Part shown: positions 7,022 to 32,520 of the stretch, one piece after another | Position numbering within the stretch: position 1 is the first letter of the stretch | How the letters are laid out: every line of letters starts with the position of its first letter | Assembly (NCBI GenBank): GCA_016200465.1 | Contig: JACQER010000026.1 | Coordinates: 1-34,837 of the forward strand | Reading direction: 5' to 3' | DNA: 34,837 bases | Origin: Gammaproteobacteria bacterium | GTDB lineage: Bacteria > Pseudomonadota > Gammaproteobacteria > Acidiferrobacterales > Sulfurifustaceae | Notes under the pieces: generated by a model | Told to the model about the DNA's origin: nothing | The model's input: only the letters and a program-made list of their open reading frames with translations | Databases searched by the model: none | Program-made: the position numbers and the translations under genes

Positions 7022-8746
7022 GTGGCCCAGAACCGTATACCGGACAACGTGACGAACGCAGAAATTCAACGAAGGGAAATGGCGAGCAACGCCCAGGCGG
7101 TGCGCATCATCGCGACCGGTTTTGCCGCGCTGATCGTGCTGATGATTGCACTGGTAATTTTCGGCCTGGTGCGGCTGAACGAGGTGTACAAAACGGTCAA
7201 CGAGATCGTCACCGTCGAACACGTGGCCATCAAATCGCTGTATATCATGCAGGGCGCATCGCGTGAGCGCGCCATGCTGGTTCACAAAATTGCCCAGACG
7301 GAAGACCCGTTCGACCGGGAAGAACTGATACAGCGCTTCTACGATCAGGCGTCCGTGTTCGTCCAGGCGCGGCAGGATATGCAAGCCCTGCGTCGGTCGG
7401 AGGAAGAAAAATCGCTTCTCGAAAAGTTGTACGCTGGGACCAGTACGACGGCGCCACTTCTGCAACAGGTCGTCAATCTGGTGCAAAACGGTCAACTTGC
7501 CGAGGCGAGACGCCTCCTGTCGGAGAAGGCATTGCCGGCGCAGACGCGCGTGATCCAATCTGTGACACAGATGCTCGAATATGAGCTGAGCAAATCCACA
7601 AAAATGGCCGATACCGCGCGACAAAAACAGCAGCAGGGCGGTTGGTTCATGATCGCCAGCGGCGCCGGGGTCATTGTGCTGAGCGGCCTGATTGCGCTGT
7701 TTGTCATACGTCGTCTTTCGGATCTGGTGCAAAATCTCGTGCATACCTCGGGCGATCTTCGAATCGCACTAAGGGATCTGCAGTTCGAAAAGCAGGCGCT
7801 CGATGAGCACAGCATCGTAAGTATCACCGACGCGGACGGAAACATCACCTACGTCAACCAGAAGTTCATCGACGCCAGCGGCTATACGCGAGAAGAATTA
7901 CTGGGTCAGAATCATCGCCTTCTCAAGTCCGACCACCATCCACCGTCATTCTTCGAAGACCTGTGGGAGACGATATCGTCCGGTCATGTGTGGCACGGGC
8001 AGATCTGCAATCGGGCCAGGAACGGCACACGCTATTGGGTGGAAACCACCATCGTGCCGTTTCTGGACGACGCCGGCCTGCCATACCAGTATGTCTCGAT
8101 CCGGACGGAAATTACCCCAATGAAGGAAGCCGAGCGGATGCTCCAGCAAAGCAAGGAACAGCTCGAGACCATGGTGCAGGAGCGCACCAACGAACTGGCC
8201 AGGACCAATAGTGAATTGCAATCCGAGATCGATCGGCGCAAGCAGCTGGAGGAAAATTTACGCAGTCTGGCGATCACGGACACCCTCACCGGGATTCATA
8301 ACCGGCGGAAATTCGACGAGGCCCTGGGTTCGGAAATGAGCCGCGCGGGGCGTTATGACACGCCGCTTTCCTTGGTCATGTTCGACATCGACCATTTCAA
8401 GCAGATCAACGACACGCGCGGCCATCTGGTCGGCGACAGGATTCTTGCAGCGTTGGCCGCCTTTGTCGCCGAAATGATCCGCTCCCACGACGTATTCGCG
8501 CGCTACGGCGGGGAGGAGTTCGTGATCCTGGCGCCCAACACCGACATGAACGGATGTCGCAAACTGGCGGAAAAACTGCGTGCCGCGATCGAACGGCATG
8601 CCTTTACAGGCATCCAACACGTCACGTGCAGTTTCGGGCTGGCCGATCACAAGCGCGGCGACACGGCCGCCGGTTTCCTGCGCCGGGCTGACGTGGCGCT
8701 TTACCGCGCGAAAAAGAACGGGCGCAACCGGGTGGAGGAAGAGTAA
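7022..8746 (+). CDS. Membrane diguanylate cyclase, 4HB-PAS-GGDEF
   Basis: Predicted to make the second messenger c-di-GMP. Domains over 574 residues: TM1 about 28-50, a periplasmic all-helical region (51-206, resembling the four-helix-bundle sensor of chemoreceptors), TM2 about 208-229, PAS about 255-370 ([32 protein letters not shown]), a coiled coil 368-415 and GGDEF 416-574. The active site is GGEEF at 496-500, an active variant. An inhibitory RxxD I-site (RSHD, 487-490) lies exactly five residues before it, so product inhibition is expected. The start is uncertain: GTG 7022 has a poor ribosome site, and ATG 7079 is an alternative that keeps TM1. A sigma-54-like promoter precedes it. It is separate from the surE-rpoS genes downstream. 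Confidence 0.92.
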
Positions 8747-24321: not shown

Positions 24322-25434
24322 ATGGTTCACGTCATGAAACAAGAAAAGGGAATAAAGGCGCTCATCATCGACGATTCGGCGGTCATGCGTCAGATGCTCA
24401 CGATGATCCTGCACGAAGACCCGGATATCCGCGTGGTCGGTACCGCCGCCAATCCTCTCATCGCACGCGAGAAGATCAAGGCGCTCAAGCCCGACGTGCT
24501 GACGCTGGACGTGGAAATGCCCGGTATGGACGGCATCACGTTTCTCGAAAAGCTGATGCGTCTGTATCCGCTGCCGGTGGTCATGGTGTCGTCGCACACG
24601 GAAAAAGGCGCGGCCGCCACGTTGCGCGCGCTCGACCTCGGCGCGGTCGACTTTGTCGCCAAGCCCCAGGGCAACCTCCGCGAAGGCATGACGCACGAGC
24701 TGATGGACGAAATCCGCACCAAGGTTCGGGCCGCCGCCAGCGCACGTGTGCGCGCCATAGCGTCCGGGCCGCGCCCGCCCGCGCCCCGGCCCCAGCCATT
24801 GCCAATGAACCTGACATCGACCCGTGACGGAATAGTCGTCATCGGTGCTTCCGCCGGTGGTACCCAGGCCATCGCCGAAATTCTACCCAAGCTTCCGCGC
24901 TCGACCCCGGGCATCGCCATCGTGCAACACATGCCGCCGAAATTCACGGCATCGTTCGCGGAACGCCTCGACGAACAATGTGAGCTGGAGGTTCGGGAAG
25001 CCAAAAGCGGCGACCGGCTCAAGCCCGGCGTGGCGCTGATCGCCCCGGGCGGTTACCACATGGCAATCATGAAAGCCGGCGGAGGATACGCGGTGCGGGT
25101 TTACGAAGACGAGCCGGTCAACCGTCATCGTCCGTCGGTCGACGTGCTTTTTCATTCAGCGGCCGAGGTGGCTCGATCCGAGGCGCTGGGCATCATTCTC
25201 ACGGGCATGGGCAGCGACGGCGCGCGCGGTCTGCGCGCGATGAAAATGACGGGCGCCCAGACCATCGCCCAGGATGAAAAGAGTTGCGTGGTCTTCGGCA
25301 TGCCGGAACAGGCAATCCGCCACGGCGGCGTGTGCGAAGTCGCGCCGCTCGATCGCATCGCCGAGCGCATCATTGCGTGGGCAAATTCGGAGGAACGGCC
25401 TGAAAACGGCAATTCGTTCAAAAATAGTCTATAA
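24322..25434 (+). CDS. cheB: Chemotaxis protein-glutamate methylesterase CheB
   Basis: Removes receptor methyl groups when phosphorylated by CheA. 370 residues: receiver domain with Asp17/Asp18 and phospho-acceptor Asp63 (LDVEMPGMDG), Lys114 (VAKP), a Pro-rich linker about 148-165, and the esterase domain with the catalytic triad Ser177 (GASAGG), His203 (VQHMP) and Asp299 (GMGSDG). ATG 24322 is used; ATG 24334 is also in frame. Last gene of the che operon; a weak hairpin (AAACG-TCTG-CGTTT, 25442-25455) lies just after it. Confidence 0.95.
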   Translation: MVHVMKQEKGIKALIIDDSAVMRQMLTMILHEDPDIRVVGTAANPLIAREKIKALKPDVLTLDVEMPGMDGITFLEKLMRLYPLPVVMVSSHTEKGAAATLRALDLGAVDFVAKPQGNLREGMTHELMDEIRTKVRAAASARVRAIASGPRPPAPRPQPLPMNLTSTRDGIVVIGASAGGTQAIAEILPKLPRSTPGIAIVQHMPPKFTASFAERLDEQCELEVREAKSGDRLKPGVALIAPGGYHMAIMKAGGGYAVRVYEDEPVNRHRPSVDVLFHSAAEVARSEALGIILTGMGSDGARGLRAMKMTGAQTIAQDEKSCVVFGMPEQAIRHGGVCEVAPLDRIAERIIAWANSEERPENGNSFKNSL

Positions 25435-25557: not shown

Positions 25558-28362
25558 ATGACAGTTATGGCAGAAAGGACGCGCAACGGATTTTTCAGGG
25601 TGTCATGGCTTCTGCCGTCTATTCCGGAGCTCGCGGGTTTATTTCACAGAATCCCGAGCATTGCTTTGATGGTGTTTGTGCTGGCAGCAGTCGACACCAG
25701 CCAGGCGCTGGCAGGCGAGCGTTTGCGGATTGTGGCGGCGCAAACAGCCGCCGACACGGGCCTGATCAGTTCCCTCGCCGAAGGCTTCCGCGTCAATCAT
25801 CCCGATGTCGCCATCGATGTCCAGAAGGTGGGCGCGCTTTCAACGCTCGACCTTGGGCGCCGCGGCGCGGCCGATCTGATCATCACCCATTATCCGGAAG
25901 GCGAAAAGCTGTTTGTAGAGGATGGTTACGGCCTGCTGCGGACCAGCATCATGTACAACGAGTTTGCCATCCTGGGGCCGTCGAATGACCCGTTGAAGCT
26001 CGCCCGGGAAAAAGATCTGGTCACGGTGCTGCGACGTCTGGCGCATGAACAAGTATCTTTTCTTGTTCCAGGAAAACGTTCAGGAACCTTGAATAAACTC
26101 GATGAGCTGTGGCTCATGGCCGGTATCGAGCCCAACTGGGTCGGCTATGAAATCAGCAACGCCAGTTCGGTGGCCACCCTGAGGGATGCCGCGCTTTTCG
26201 GAAACTATACCTTCACGGACATTGCCACCTATCTCGTCAACCGCGAAATGGTGGCCGAGGAAATTATTCCTCTGTACCGCGACAACATACTTCTGCGCAA
26301 TTATTATTCCGCCATCGTCATCAACAAAGAACGTATCCCCCAGGCCAACCAGAAACTCGCCGAGGAATTCCTCGAATATCTGGTTTCGGACGAAGCCCAG
26401 GACCGCATCCGCCGCTTTGGCGAGGACAGATTCGAAACGGCTTTGTTTATCCCGGCCGCGGGCCTTGATGAAGGGTTGAGGGCGCGCCGCGACCGCGTTG
26501 AGCTCGGGCGCAAGAACCATGAGCTGAAGCTGTTGCTGGGGTTAGTGCTGGTGTTTGTGACGCTATTCATATTCGCCAACATGTTGCTGGTGCGCATGCG
26601 CAAGATCGACAAGATCCGGCGCCGCAGCGAAGAGCGCTTCGAGTTGGCGGTTGCCGGCACCAACGACGGTATCTGGGACTGGGATGTGCTGGCGAACATG
26701 GCTTATTTTTCGCCGCGCCTGAAAACAATGTTAAAACTCGATCAACCGGATAATTTCTTTGCCAATCCCCGGCATGTCCTCGCCGAGCTGGCCAATCCCG
26801 CCGATCAGGCTTCCCTGCTGGGTAAGATCGAGCTTTATTTGCAAGAGGAAAATAGCGGAGCGGACGACTTGTTTCAGACTGAATTCCGCCTGTCCTCGGG
26901 CGCCGATGCTCGCTGGCTTCTGATGCGTGGCAAGGCGATTCGCAGTCCGACAGGCGAGGCGGTGCGCATTTCCGGGTCGGTTACGGATATCACGGACCGC
27001 AAGACACAGGAAGCGTTGATCGAGCACCAGGCCCTGCACGATGCGCTGACCGACCTCCCGAATCGCGCGCTGCTCCGCGATTGCCTGCAGCATGCCATCC
27101 GGCATGCCACGCGACAGAAAACCTGTCTCGCGCTGCTAATGATGGATCTCAATCGATTCAAGGATATTAACGATACTCTTGGCCATCAGGTGGGGGACAA
27201 AGTGCTGCAACAAGTGGCGGCGCGGCTTCAGCGTATTCTTCGCCCCTCGGACACGGTGGCACGCCTGGGCGGAGATGAATTTGCCGTATTGCTTCCCGTC
27301 ACGGACGCCGCCTATGCGAATCATGCCGCCCAGAAAATCATTCTGGCGATGAAAAAGGTTTTTGAAGTCGGCGGACACAGTCTCTACGTCGGCGGAAGTC
27401 TCGGGATTGCCATATTTCCGGAGCACGGCCAGGATGTCGAGACTCTGATTCAGCATGCGGACGTCGCCATGTATCTGGCCAAGCGTTCAAGCAGTGGCTG
27501 TGCCTTTTATGACCAGAGTCAGGACCGTCACAGTGTTACGCGCCTGGCGCTGGAGAAAGACCTGCACGATGCGATTGATAACAATGCTCTCGATTTGTAT
27601 TACCAGCCTCAAATAAACCTGCACACCAATAAGGTTTCAGGCGTGGAGGCGTTGCTGCGCTGGAAGCATCCGCAACGCGGCATGATCCCGCCTGACGAGA
27701 TGATCCCTATCGCAGAGCAGACCGGCCTGATCAAGCCGTTGACCATGTGGGTCCTGAATAATGCCTTGCATCAGTGTGATGTCTGGCGACGCAAGGGATT
27801 TGATTTGAGCGTGGCCGTGAACCTTTCCGTCTGGAATCTTCAGGACCCCATGCTGACGGATGAAATCAGGGCGATTTTTTCCACCTGGAACATCCCGCCC
27901 TCCTGTCTGGAGCTGGAGATTACGGAAAGCGCCATGATGGCCAATCCGGAACTCGCGCTCGAGGTGCTGACCAGTCTCCACGCGATGGGCGTGCGTCTGG
28001 CGGTGGATGATTTCGGCACCGGTTTTTCCTCCCTGGCCTATCTGAGAAAGCTGCCGGTCGATTCACTGAAGATCGACAAATCGTTTGTGATCGGCATGGC
28101 GAAAGAGGATAACGATGCCACCATTGTGCGTTCGACCGTCGAACTGGCCCATAACCTCGGGCTGAGCGTCGTGGCGGAGGGCGTGGAAAATGAACAGGTC
28201 CTGGGATTGCTGGCCAAGCACGGCTGCGATACGGCTCAGGGCTATTTCCTCGGGCGCCCCATGCCCTTATCTGAAATAACGCAGTACCTGGAAGCCCATC
28301 GAGCTGATTTTTCCAATAAAAAACAGAAGTTTGATAATTATTTCAAACCAGGATCCGCGTAA
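25558..28362 (+). CDS. TupA-like periplasmic sensor fused to PAS-GGDEF-EAL
   Basis: 934-residue bifunctional c-di-GMP enzyme. Order: signal/anchor about 33-52 (cut expected after ALA); a periplasmic-binding domain about 54-310 resembling TupA tungstate-binding proteins (ALSTLDLGRRGAADLIITH, EKLFVEDGYG, IMYNEFAILGPSNDP); TM about 324-346; PAS about 358-482; GGDEF about 490-655; EAL about 660-915. Cyclase site GGDEF 571-575 with I-site RPSD 562-565 exactly five residues before. Phosphodiesterase motifs intact: EALLR 697-701, NLS 755-757, ELEITES 785-791, DDFGTG 817-822, EGVE 874-877. ATG 25567 is an alternative start with a better-placed GGA. The usual TupA TTTS ligand loop is altered (AQTAADTG), so the ligand may differ. 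It follows cheB by 123 bases. Confidence 0.9.
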   Translation: MTVMAERTRNGFFRVSWLLPSIPELAGLFHRIPSIALMVFVLAAVDTSQALAGERLRIVAAQTAADTGLISSLAEGFRVNHPDVAIDVQKVGALSTLDLGRRGAADLIITHYPEGEKLFVEDGYGLLRTSIMYNEFAILGPSNDPLKLAREKDLVTVLRRLAHEQVSFLVPGKRSGTLNKLDELWLMAGIEPNWVGYEISNASSVATLRDAALFGNYTFTDIATYLVNREMVAEEIIPLYRDNILLRNYYSAIVINKERIPQANQKLAEEFLEYLVSDEAQDRIRRFGEDRFETALFIPAAGLDEGLRARRDRVELGRKNHELKLLLGLVLVFVTLFIFANMLLVRMRKIDKIRRRSEERFELAVAGTNDGIWDWDVLANMAYFSPRLKTMLKLDQPDNFFANPRHVLAELANPADQASLLGKIELYLQEENSGADDLFQTEFRLSSGADARWLLMRGKAIRSPTGEAVRISGSVTDITDRKTQEALIEHQALHDALTDLPNRALLRDCLQHAIRHATRQKTCLALLMMDLNRFKDINDTLGHQVGDKVLQQVAARLQRILRPSDTVARLGGDEFAVLLPVTDAAYANHAAQKIILAMKKVFEVGGHSLYVGGSLGIAIFPEHGQDVETLIQHADVAMYLAKRSSSGCAFYDQSQDRHSVTRLALEKDLHDAIDNNALDLYYQPQINLHTNKVSGVEALLRWKHPQRGMIPPDEMIPIAEQTGLIKPLTMWVLNNALHQCDVWRRKGFDLSVAVNLSVWNLQDPMLTDEIRAIFSTWNIPPSCLELEITESAMMANPELALEVLTSLHAMGVRLAVDDFGTGFSSLAYLRKLPVDSLKIDKSFVIGMAKEDNDATIVRSTVELAHNLGLSVVAEGVENEQVLGLLAKHGCDTAQGYFLGRPMPLSEITQYLEAHRADFSNKKQKFDNYFKPGSA

Positions 28363-28767
28363 TTCCGAAGTTTGCAAGGGTTTCTCACCCTTAATCCCCG
28401 CAATCACGTACAAGCTTCCGGAGTTGTTCCATCGCTCAACTCCGCGTCCTGCATTGCAGTCCCTGTCATAAATTCGTAACATGATTTGTGCGGTCATGGC
28501 ACTAACTTCCTGTAACAAATGAAATTCATGCCAATGGATGGCCGGATGACGATTACCCGGCGCGCCATGCCTGAATCACCTATGGGGAGAGCAATCCGGA
28601 GTCATTGGGTGCCAACGCAGGGGCGTGCTGGCCAAGGGGACTACACGTTTTTTTGCCTGATCTTCCGTCGCCAGCGGGTGTATGTGACGTACGCAAACGC
28701 CAACGCCAAAAAAAACCAGGGGGCCTTGTTTTCAGGCGCAGGGTAATCGCACCAAAGGAGCAAAGTG
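28363..28767. other. Long intergenic region before selD, two hairpins, no credible gene
   Basis: Hairpins: AAGGGT/ACCCTT just after the stop (28376-28392) and CGGAGTTG (28419-28426) / CAACTCCG (28437-28444). A third imperfect one, AAAACCAGG-GGG-CCTTGTTTT (28712-28732), is flanked by an A run on the left, so on the minus strand it looks like a weak terminator. A 75-codon open frame (28519-28746) lacks any family signature and a ribosome site. The dense Trp/Arg-rich open frames on both strands at 28560-28760 suggest structured non-coding or repeat DNA. Confidence 0.5.
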
Positions 28768-29868
28768 ATGGATGCACTGAGACTTACATCGTTTTCCCGT
28801 TCGGGTGGCTGCGGATGCAAGATCGATCCCACGGCGCTGCACCAGATCCTTGAAAAAGTCCCGAAACAATGGGGCCAGTCAGACTTGATTGTCGGCATTG
28901 AAAACAGCGACGACGCCGCCGTCATGCGGATAAACGATCAAGAATCGCTCGTATTCAGCAACGATTTTTCCACGCCCATCGTCGACGATCCATATACCTA
29001 CGGCCGCATCGCAGCGGCCAATGCGCTGAGCGACATTTATGCCATGGGCGCCAGTCCTCTTATTGCCAACGCCATTGTCGGTTTTCCGGTCGACAAACTG
29101 CCCATGGACGCGATGCAGGAAATCATGCGTGGCGCGGTCGAGGTATGCCAGGATGCCGGTATACCGCTGGCCGGCGGGCACAGCATCGAGAACCCGCAGC
29201 CGATCTTCGGACTCGCCGTGATCGGCATGGCGCGTACGCACATGGTGAAGACCAACGTCGGCGCCCGGATCGGCGACGTGCTCTTGCTCACCAAGCCGCT
29301 GGGAATCGGCATTCTCGCCAGCGCGGTCAAGACCGGCGTGATCCGTCCCCGGGCATATGAAAAATTCATCCATTACATTACCCAGCTCAACAAGCCCGGC
29401 TCGTGGCTGGGAAAACAACCGGAAGTGCATGCTCTCACCGACGTGACGGGGTTCGGTCTCGGCGGTCATTTGTTCGAAATGGCCAAGGGTGGACGGGTGT
29501 GCATGGAAATAGACACCACCGCCGTGCCGGTCATCGAAGAAGCCTGGTCGCTGGTGGAAGAGGGCGTCGTGCCCAGCGGCGCCTACCGCAACATGCACAG
29601 CTATGGCGATTCCTTGCGATTCGACGACGAATGGAACATCGATCATCAGCTCGTTTTCACCGACCCGCAAACGAATGGCGGTCTTCTGATGTCCGTGGCG
29701 CCCGAGAAAGCCGGCCTGTTTCTGGACACGCTCAAGGAGTTCGGCTTTGAGCAGACAGCCGCGATTGGTCGCGTGCGGGCCCTTAAAGGGACGGAAGCAC
29801 CTGTGGTATTCAAGCGCTTGCACCAGGCGAAGCTGGCCGGCATGTCATTTGAAAACGCAGAGTCGTAG
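28768..29868 (+). CDS. selD: Selenide, water dikinase (selenophosphate synthase)
   Basis: Makes selenophosphate from selenide and ATP for selenocysteine and 2-selenouridine synthesis. 366 residues. The catalytic Cys15 and Lys18 lie in SGGCGCKID, equivalent to Cys17 and Lys20 of the Escherichia coli enzyme; Cys, not selenocysteine, is encoded. Further motifs: GIENSDDAAV, SNDFSTPIVDDPYTYGRIAAANALSD-type metal/ATP site, LAGGHSIENPQPIFG and DVTGFGLGGHL. ATG 28768 follows AAAGGAG by seven bases, and is preferred over GTG 28765. No selA, selB or ybbB is in the window. Confidence 0.96.
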   Translation: MDALRLTSFSRSGGCGCKIDPTALHQILEKVPKQWGQSDLIVGIENSDDAAVMRINDQESLVFSNDFSTPIVDDPYTYGRIAAANALSDIYAMGASPLIANAIVGFPVDKLPMDAMQEIMRGAVEVCQDAGIPLAGGHSIENPQPIFGLAVIGMARTHMVKTNVGARIGDVLLLTKPLGIGILASAVKTGVIRPRAYEKFIHYITQLNKPGSWLGKQPEVHALTDVTGFGLGGHLFEMAKGGRVCMEIDTTAVPVIEEAWSLVEEGVVPSGAYRNMHSYGDSLRFDDEWNIDHQLVFTDPQTNGGLLMSVAPEKAGLFLDTLKEFGFEQTAAIGRVRALKGTEAPVVFKRLHQAKLAGMSFENAES

Positions 29869-29893
29869 ATAATCGGGGACGGCGAGCGACGCC

Positions 29894-30679
29894 ATGGACG
29901 CAGGAATGTTTCCGACATTGCTTTCGCTCGGGCTGGTGGGCGGTTTCGTGTCGGGTCTTCTTGGGATCGGCGGCGGCATCATCATGGTGCCGCTGCTGTT
30001 GTATGTGCCCTCCGCTTTGGGTGTCGGGTCGCTGACCATGAAAACCGTGGCGGGCATTACCTCCGTGCAGAGCTTCTTCGGCGCGCTCTCGGGCGCCATC
30101 GGCCACAGGCGCTACAACCGCATCAGCACACCCCTTGCCTATGCCGTGGGTGGCAGTACCGCAGCCGGCTCCCTGGCCGGCTCGATCGCTTCGGCCTATC
30201 TGTCCTCGGAAACCCTGCTGATGGTCTTCGCGGCCATGGCGATCGTTGCCGCCATCATGATGATGATCCCCAAGCATGAGACAGGGCAGGAACCTGATGT
30301 GGAGGAGCTTGAATTCAACAAGCCGCTGGCTATCGCGGTGGGGCTGTTCCTCGGCACGCTTTCGGGCATTATCGGACAGGGAGGGGCGTTTCTTTTCGTT
30401 CCGGCGATGCTTTATGTTCTCAAAATTCCCACACGCATCACGATAGGAACGACGCTCGCCATCGGTATCGCCTCATCGGCGGCGGTACTGATCGGTCGTC
30501 TCGGAACCAACCAGATACCTTACCTGATGTCGGCGGTCCTGGTGGCCGGGGTTCTGATCGGCGCGCAGCTGGGCAGCGTCATGAGCCAGAGAACGCCGCG
30601 CCGGCTGTTGCGCGGGATGCTGTCCGTGCTGATCGCGGTGACCGCCATCAAGATATGGTACGAGCTTTTGCTGGCCTGA
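29894..30679 (+). CDS. TauE/SafE (TSUP) family membrane permease
   Basis: 261-residue inner-membrane protein with about eight hydrophobic helices arranged as two similar halves. Signature repeats: GLLGIGGGIIMVPLLLY near 22-38 and GIIGQGGAFLFVPAMLY near 158-175. The family moves sulfur-containing anions (sulfite, sulfoacetate, taurine, thiosulfate) or organic acids. It starts 25 bases after selD, so is probably cotranscribed with it; a role in sulfur or selenium oxyanion traffic is only an inference. Confidence 0.88.
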   Translation: MDAGMFPTLLSLGLVGGFVSGLLGIGGGIIMVPLLLYVPSALGVGSLTMKTVAGITSVQSFFGALSGAIGHRRYNRISTPLAYAVGGSTAAGSLAGSIASAYLSSETLLMVFAAMAIVAAIMMMIPKHETGQEPDVEELEFNKPLAIAVGLFLGTLSGIIGQGGAFLFVPAMLYVLKIPTRITIGTTLAIGIASSAAVLIGRLGTNQIPYLMSAVLVAGVLIGAQLGSVMSQRTPRRLLRGMLSVLIAVTAIKIWYELLLA

Positions 30680-30772
30680 GCCTTCAGCCGCGCCGGCCGA
30701 TGGAATAAAACGACATGGCAATAAGTCACGGTAAATAATAAATGAAATATTTTTCCACAGGAGATTGCAACA

Positions 30773-31276
30773 ATGCGGAAGTGTCTATGGCCTTGCATCA
30801 TCATGGCGGCTTTGGCATCAGCCGTTTCTCATATCAGCCGCGCGGATCCTCCCGAAGGCTATTCTTTTTTACCGTTTGACGAAGCACTAAAGACGGCCAA
30901 GCAGCAGAACAAAAAAATCTTCGTCTATTACGGTCGGTACGGCTGCGGCTACTGCGACAAAACCAACAAGGAATCCTTCAGCGATCCGGCGCTGCGCAAG
31001 CTGTACACGGAGCACTATGTCCTGGCTTACGTGGACGCCGAAAGCGGAAAGCGCCTGACGCTCCCGAGCGGTGAACACATCACCGAAATGGAACTGGGCG
31101 CCAGGCTCAAGGCGGTGGTGACACCGGTCTTCATCTACACCAATGCCGACGGACAGCCTATCTTCAGGACTCCCGGTTTTCAGACCGTCAAGGATTTCAG
31201 CAAATACGATCAGTATATATACGGCGACCATTACAAAAATCAGACCCTGGCGCAATTCCTCGCGCAAAACCCATGA
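30773..31276 (+). CDS. Periplasmic thioredoxin-like protein (CGYC)
   Basis: 167 residues with a signal peptide (about 1-24, cut near SRA-DPP) and a thioredoxin fold of the SoxW/thioredoxin_2 type. Redox motif CGYC at 58-61, with Gly in place of the usual preceding Trp; cis-proline in VVTPVFIYTNADGQ. Possible role: thiol-disulfide exchange in the periplasm, for example cofactor or sulfur-protein maturation. AGGAGA lies before the ATG. AT-rich leader 30680-30772 likely carries its own promoter. Its stop overlaps the next gene's ATG (ATGATG). Confidence 0.87.
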   Translation: MRKCLWPCIIMAALASAVSHISRADPPEGYSFLPFDEALKTAKQQNKKIFVYYGRYGCGYCDKTNKESFSDPALRKLYTEHYVLAYVDAESGKRLTLPSGEHITEMELGARLKAVVTPVFIYTNADGQPIFRTPGFQTVKDFSKYDQYIYGDHYKNQTLAQFLAQNP

Positions 31277-32520
31277 TGTGCCGATCGCTGCTGGCATTGC
31301 CGTTGCTCGTCAGCATGCCGGCATTGGCGGATACCTGGAGTTTCGATAACCGGATCGCGGTCTCGAAAAACATCGAGGCCGGTGTGTTTCAGCATCTGGA
31401 TTCCTCCGGCCGGAAAAATATCGCCGTATCCGGCAACACCCTGGCGGTCGCATGGGAAGACAACCGCAGTGGTGCGCCTCAGACCTATGTCGCCTTGAAG
31501 AAGCTGGAGGCGGACGAATTCTCCACGGAACAGCGGATCAGCACCGGCAAGTCGGCCTTTGCTCCGGCGATCCTCGCGCTCGGCAAGGGCCGGTTTCTGG
31601 CCGGCTGGGAGCAGGATGGCGCAGTCTGGCTGCGTACGGTTTCGGCGACGGGACTCGGTTCGGTTCGACAGATAAGTCGGGCGGAAGCCGGCCAGATCGC
31701 ATTGGCCACCACCGATGGTCGCCGCATCATCGCCGTGTGGAATCAACGCACCGGGCGCTTCAGCCAGATCGTCGCCACCATGATAAAAATCGGCGTCAAG
31801 GGAGAGACGATCTCTGCCCGCGCGCCAACGCCGGTGGACCCGGATTCACCCGTGGCCGATCAATCCCTTCCTGCTGTCGTCCTGACGAAGCAGGGTGCCA
31901 CGGTCGTCTGGGAAGATCGACGCCGGGGACATACCGCCTTGCTCTACAGCCACGCCGTCGCCGACATGAAATTCAGTCCGCCGCGCCCGCTGAACGAAAT
32001 ATTGCAGAAATCCGAGCAATACGGTCGTGGCAGCGGTGTCACGCGGGCGGCGCTTTCCGTGTTTGGCGACGACCAGATCGTCGCCACCTGGATGGACAAG
32101 CGCGGCTATCAAACAGGTTACGACATATATGCCGCCTTCAGCCGCGACAACGGCGCAAGTTTCGGCGCCAATGAACTGGTGCAGGATGCTTTTGCCGATC
32201 AATACGCGCAGTGGCATCCGGCCGTGACCGGCAACGGCTCCGGTCAGATGGTCATTGCCTGGGATGACGACCGGGACGGCACGTCGGATATATGGTTGTC
32301 ATGGAAAATCCGGGGCGGCTGGAGCACGAACCTTGCGCCTCCGCCGGCGGCCGACAGCCGGCAACAGACCAATCCCGCCATTGCCCTGGACACGCAGGGC
32401 AATCTTCATTTGGTCTGGTTGGAACAGGAGGCGGAGAACAGCCCGGGACGGGTAATGTATGCCGTGGGCCGCTACCTGCGCGGTCCACAGCCGTCCGGCG
32501 CTTCAACGCCGGAGAAATAG
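31273..32520 (+). CDS. Exported beta-propeller-like protein (BNR/sialidase-type repeats)
   Basis: 415 residues; signal peptide 1-20 ending SMPALA-DT. The rest is made of recurring strand units such as LAVAWEDNRSG, RFLAGWEQDGA, ATVVWEDRRRG, QIVATWMDKRG, MVIAWDDDRDG and LHLVWLEQEAE, spaced about 45-60 residues. The VAWEDxRxG pattern with Asp-box-like turns (FSRDNGASFGAN) is typical of six-bladed sialidase/BNR propellers. No catalytic sialidase Arg/Glu/Tyr set could be assigned, so it is more likely a binding protein. ATG 31273 or 31276 may be used. Translationally coupled to the thioredoxin-like gene, which may act on it or its substrate. Confidence 0.78.
   Translation: MMCRSLLALPLLVSMPALADTWSFDNRIAVSKNIEAGVFQHLDSSGRKNIAVSGNTLAVAWEDNRSGAPQTYVALKKLEADEFSTEQRISTGKSAFAPAILALGKGRFLAGWEQDGAVWLRTVSATGLGSVRQISRAEAGQIALATTDGRRIIAVWNQRTGRFSQIVATMIKIGVKGETISARAPTPVDPDSPVADQSLPAVVLTKQGATVVWEDRRRGHTALLYSHAVADMKFSPPRPLNEILQKSEQYGRGSGVTRAALSVFGDDQIVATWMDKRGYQTGYDIYAAFSRDNGASFGANELVQDAFADQYAQWHPAVTGNGSGQMVIAWDDDRDGTSDIWLSWKIRGGWSTNLAPPPAADSRQQTNPAIALDTQGNLHLVWLEQEAENSPGRVMYAVGRYLRGPQPSGASTPEK

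Follow-up and report, generated by a model that had tools for sequence, protein, structure and literature searches.

What does a domain resembling the tungstate-binding protein TupA sense when it is fused to a cyclase and a phosphodiesterase of c-di-GMP, a biofilm signal? The question is raised by one gene in a stretch of 34,837 nucleotides from a gammaproteobacterium of the Sulfurifustaceae (assembly GCA_016200465.1, contig JACQER010000026.1), which as a whole we call the window. A sequence-only reading had proposed that the protein makes c-di-GMP respond directly to tungstate, molybdate or another oxyanion. We examined the family of its sensor domain, the residues of the ligand cleft, the homologues and their outputs, and the genomes that carry them.

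Domain organization of the fusion protein

The protein comprises the following parts (window coordinates):

25558..28362, + strand: whole gene, sensor-TM-PAS-GGDEF-EAL, 934 aa, one open frame
25630..25713, + strand: N-terminal hydrophobic segment, about residues 25-52, likely a signal peptide or membrane anchor (hydropathy only)
25723..26475, + strand: TupA-like periplasmic binding domain, residues 56-306 (profile and PDB sequence matches)
26530..26592, + strand: transmembrane helix, about residues 325-345 (hydrophobicity)
26608..27012, + strand: PAS region, about residues 351-485 (alignment with PAS_3 matches in homologues L025 and L028)
27031..27492, + strand: GGDEF domain, residues 492-645, with I-site RPSD at 562-565 and GGDEF at 571-575 (Pfam and motifs)
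27556..28260, + strand: EAL domain, residues 667-901, with the full set of catalytic motifs (Pfam and motifs)

Domain matches run in the order PBP_like_2, SBP_bac_11, GGDEF and EAL, with a hydrophobic helix between sensor and enzyme. Pfam scores reach 171 bits for GGDEF and 260 bits for EAL, and the motifs RPSD (the I-site), GGDEF, EAL, VNLS, EITES, DDFGTG, LKID, AEGVE and AQGY are all found, so that the single helix followed by a cyclase and a phosphodiesterase with intact motifs, as first read from the sequence, is borne out. Judged by these motifs, both enzymatic domains look active. The PAS domain assigned to the fusion by the same reading holds in part; two homologues have a PAS_3 match in the region aligned with it, whereas the window protein itself gives no Pfam match to PAS. 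The N-terminal hydrophobic segment is weaker in hydrophobicity than the helix at 325-345, and the sensor would be periplasmic.

The sensor is related to TupA

The NCBIfam TupA model (NF041772) matches residues 44-299 of the protein with 114.7 bits (E 4.8e-33), which is below the curated cut-off of 400 bits; stand-alone classical TupAs of related genomes, at 224 and 217 bits, also fall under this cut-off. Pfam PBP_like_2 matches residues 59-279 with 66.5 bits. Searched against PDB, the sensor finds TupA structures at roughly 1e-25 to 1e-34 (3muq 1.6e-34, 3lr1 1.4e-29, 5my5 3.1e-27, 3kn3 8e-25), and a profile built from nine homologues ranks these structures identically (8e-52, 2e-42, 5e-41 and 2e-37). 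Phosphate-binding proteins in the same PDB search reach only about 1e-3, as against about 1e-25 or below for TupA, and the folds of phosphate or amino-acid binders are thus no better match. An AlphaFold2 model of the sensor, built with an alignment of three sequences, had a mean pLDDT of 52.5, too poor for pocket work, and a fold search with it placed TupA structures on top with a TM-score of only about 0.3, a weak result. Homologues that might deepen the folding alignment were sought among viral contigs and none was found.

At the level of sequence, the sensor is confirmed as a genuine TupA-type binding domain, derived from or sister to TupA, much where the sequence-only reading had placed it (about residues 54-310). 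It resembles TupA of the TupABC system (NF041772; PDB 3lr1, 5my5, 3muq) in sequence across the full domain and retains the equivalents of H59, T124 and D170. Yet by two ligand-binding features, TTTS and R118, and by its partner, it is not a TupA. TupA partners a transporter, whereas the sensor is fused to a transmembrane helix and a signalling enzyme, and inspection of the neighbourhood revealed no permease or ABC ATPase gene adjoining the window gene that could play the part of TupBC.

A consistently altered ligand cleft

In the cleft of Desulfovibrio alaskensis TupA, a TTTS motif in lobe A faces R118, T124 and D170, with H59 shown alongside (PMC5517513). Mutation has shown R118 to be the arginine that sets oxyanion binding; R118E abolishes binding, and in R118Q molybdate binding is lost while tungstate is still bound at 90 nM (PMC5517513). 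We aligned 12 fused-clade sensors (that of the window and 11 homologues) with stand-alone TupAs, and the alignment places the cleft residues as follows:

25735..25746, + strand: A60-A61-Q62-T63, aligned with TupA TTTS; only the final hydroxyl is retained
25888..25890, + strand: H111, equivalent of TupA cleft His59, H in 12 of 12
26068..26070, + strand: P171, where TupA has Arg118; Pro in nine, Ala in two and Gln in one of the 12
26080..26088, + strand: S175-G176-T177, equivalent of the TupA SGT loop; T at the Thr124 position in 12 of 12
26218..26220, + strand: D221, equivalent of TupA Asp170, D in 11 of 12
26278..26298, + strand: R241 and R247, arginines specific to the fused clade

The serine position of TTTS is T or S in 11 of the 12 fused-clade sensors and a gap in the twelfth, and the other three positions are altered, whereas stand-alone TupAs retain, a few exceptions aside, both SRGD and a TTTS-type motif. 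An altered ligand loop had been noticed before, and the change is real; its counterpart, however, is AAQT (residues 60-63) rather than an AQTAADTG block, with threonine in place of the serine. The more important change, from R118 to Pro171, had gone unnoticed. With R118 lost from all 12 sensors and three of the four TTTS positions changed, the earlier hint of a different ligand gains strength.

Two near-invariant arginines are new with respect to TupA. R241 is present in 12 of 12 fused-clade sensors, where TupA has E, Q or S, and R247 in 11 of 12, where TupA mostly has F, Y or H. By our own count R247 corresponds to F198 in the Desulfovibrio protein, beside the crossover between the lobes at 200-201 (lobe B ends at 200 and lobe A starts at 201; PMC5517513). 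R247 may therefore lie close to the ligand, and could be a stand-in for the lost R118.

Nonsynonymous differences in the sensor amount to 0.14-0.15 per site, against 0.62-0.79 for synonymous ones, which are partly saturated; the sensor is under purifying selection. The EAL domain is close to it, with 0.12-0.14 nonsynonymous differences per site. Both the N-terminal segment and the transmembrane linker are looser than the sensor, the N-terminal segment being the fastest-changing part of the protein.

Distribution, origin and outputs of the sensor

Related gammaproteobacterial genomes yielded the 11 further homologues, most of them joined to PAS-GGDEF-EAL. Close homologues (50-79% domain identity) are encoded by seven genomes among the 60 nearest relatives, not counting the window's own, with two copies in G009; other relatives have stand-alone TupA only, at about 28-32% identity. 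Order-wide, the sensor occurs in eight of 57 genomes, the window's own counted, and fused sensors beyond the order are few. When 369 genomes of the class were scored, values far above those of stand-alone TupA were confined to G011, G149, G187 and the genome of the window. A GTDB genome scan returned two records, one identical to a relative already found, a phylum sample added nothing except a borderline stand-alone protein, and the best matches in plasmid records, with about 30-35% identity, carry the annotation of ordinary solute-binding proteins.

A maximum-likelihood tree built from 50 domains separates the fused clade (12 domains) from 38 stand-alone TupAs with a support of 100/100, and 200 of 200 bootstrap trees agree. 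Given this single clade apart from the stand-alone proteins, the sensor most simply had one origin and was then joined to different outputs. One homologue, L027, is a sensor-PAS-GGDEF protein that ends at 659 aa, with no downstream EAL in any frame; L023 is sensor-TM-GGDEF; and L067:8033-9790, in a complete genome of 3.1 Mb, joins a TupA-like sensor through a transmembrane helix to HisKA-HATPase, a histidine kinase. The branches of L067 and L023 are long and their exact positions inside the fused clade are unsure. The homologue in L030 is truncated by a contig end and that in L029 includes undetermined residues. Attachment to several outputs (PAS-GGDEF-EAL, PAS-GGDEF, GGDEF and HisKA-HATPase) is as would be expected of a sensory module.

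Which of the two enzymatic activities is the output? The homologues L028:10399-13191 and L029:6793-9402 have degenerate GGDEF motifs (GGDSF and GGDTY) and no I-site but keep their EAL motifs, which points to the phosphodiesterase as the more conserved output of the family.

Four other long TupA frames (L068, L069, L071 and L072) were considered as sensor fusions and rejected after a closer look. In L069 and L071 an upstream frame runs on into a classical TupA. In L068 and L072 the TupA is joined to a permease-like segment: L068:5689-7224 encodes a classical TupA that continues into a membrane segment resembling a permease and seems to be a natural fusion of TupA with TupB, and the protein of L072:4221-5759 is 66% identical to it along its length.

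Genomic setting

The gene begins about 120 bp downstream of a che operon (cheY-A-W, MCP, cheR-D-B) that ends at 25434, so that the position right after this operon, as first described, is correct; the neighbourhood, however, is a genus-level feature. Three genomes of the genus share the order che operon, sensor gene, selD, TauE, thioredoxin-like, 415 aa protein and dynamin-like, and outside the genus no neighbour gene is conserved around the homologues examined, which adjoin genes for a prolyl oligopeptidase, a methionine-synthase-like protein, an M48 peptidase, a ribonucleotide reductase or a flavocytochrome c/SQR-like pair. A functional tie to chemotaxis or selenium was rejected, the che and selD-TauE-thioredoxin neighbours being conserved in the three genus genomes only. 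Neither promoter-like nor terminator-like sites were found downstream of the gene or in the gap that separates it from cheB. The genes that follow in the window (28765-32517), kept across the three genus genomes, encode SelD, a TauE-type exporter, a thioredoxin-like protein and the 415 aa protein, which has no Pfam match. At L030:1276-2907, next to the sensor homologue, lie genes for a small cytochrome c and for a flavoprotein akin to flavocytochrome c/sulfide-quinone reductase.

No tungsten or molybdenum genes adjoin any homologue examined. Stand-alone TupA is present in two of ten carrier genomes (G011 and G034), and ModA above the cut-off in none of the ten, with one weak partial match in G039. 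Several carrier genomes are incomplete and missing transporters there may be gaps, but G006, G149 and G187 are 99-100% complete and have neither TupA nor ModA. The window genome itself has three matches to molybdopterin-family enzymes, and its organism therefore probably uses molybdenum.

What does the receptor sense?

We consider it probable that the protein is a one-component c-di-GMP receptor whose TupA-like flytrap has been re-tuned to another small, probably anionic ligand. Homology to TupA far exceeds that to every other solved family; the cleft His, the SGT Thr and the Asp are retained while R118 is lost throughout and R241 and R247 are specific to the clade; and the carriers mostly lack a classical TupA, none having ModA above the cut-off. 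These lines support the reading, together with the single well-supported clade, the reuse of the sensor with other outputs, the purifying selection on it and the EAL motifs retained where GGDEF is degenerate. In such a membrane-anchored receptor, the two-lobed periplasmic domain would close on a small ligand, probably an anion other than the tungstate or molybdate of classical TupA, and closure would be passed through the single transmembrane helix and the PAS linker to the GGDEF-EAL pair, where the change would most likely fall on phosphodiesterase activity. The periplasmic location, the class of ligand and the direction of the response are inferred.

Could the protein be a true tungstate or molybdate sensor after all, setting c-di-GMP turnover directly, with the oxyanion held by the SGT loop, T63, H111 and D221, and R247 replacing R118? 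TupA is the closest family, H59, T124 and D170 have equivalents in the sensor, a hydroxyl persists at the serine position of TTTS, and the molybdopterin-family matches of the window genome are compatible with such a role. Tungstate could be bound even without R118, because the R118Q mutant of TupA still binds it with 90 nM affinity (PMC5517513). However, every fused-clade sensor lacks R118 and has three of the four TTTS positions changed, whereas stand-alone TupAs of the same class keep both, and neither the carriers' transporters nor the genes beside the homologues speak for these metals. We thus regard such a sensor as unlikely, and the direct control of c-di-GMP by tungstate or molybdate proposed from the sequence is not supported. 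Somewhat more improbable still is a domain that no longer binds a ligand and serves in docking or dimerisation, reporting a partner protein or the state of the membrane. In keeping with this explanation, the TupA ligand motif is largely lost and no ligand is known; yet the cleft keeps its His, Thr and Asp with hardly an exception, the arginines particular to the clade are almost as constant, and pure docking would not require a cleft. That the fusion is an artefact of assembly or annotation can practically be dismissed: the window genome is fragmented (228 contigs), but the gene is one open frame, the same fusion with 73-74% protein identity and identical gene order is found in two other genomes, and it recurs in further genera, independent homologues that refute this explanation.

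The re-tuned flytrap has a more far-reaching version, which we put forward tentatively. The sensors may form a sensory family, derived from or sister to TupA, in which the anion-holding arginine has moved from lobe B to the hinge, which responds to an oxyanion or small anion for which no c-di-GMP receptor has been described, and which has been exchanged between a histidine kinase and enzymes of c-di-GMP turnover.

Relation to known receptors

Histidine kinases with periplasmic-binding-protein sensors exist, of the BvgS/EvgS type. Like L067 they fuse a flytrap to a kinase; they differ in PBP family, and L067 has a single TupA-like domain. A 2022 review describes sensors of the PBP clan as widespread among c-di-GMP proteins, with only the SBP_bac_3 type studied by then, in the L-arginine receptor RmcA (PMC8846402). 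RmcA of Pseudomonas aeruginosa combines an SBP_bac_3 flytrap with PAS, GGDEF and EAL, and judged by its domain matches the window protein shares the layout of a PBP-clan domain, a transmembrane helix and cytoplasmic GGDEF/EAL; its sensor, however, comes from another PBP family, PBP_like_2/TupA. The kind of receptor is thus already known, whereas the literature searched contains no description of a TupA-GGDEF or TupA-kinase fusion. With its consistently re-tuned pocket, the TupA-like type is a compact receptor open to testing, from which one could set out to find an inorganic or small-anion signal that governs decisions on biofilm and motility in bacteria that are mostly uncultured. The window encodes a second c-di-GMP protein at 7022-8743, in which a 4HB_MCP sensor is followed by PAS and GGDEF.
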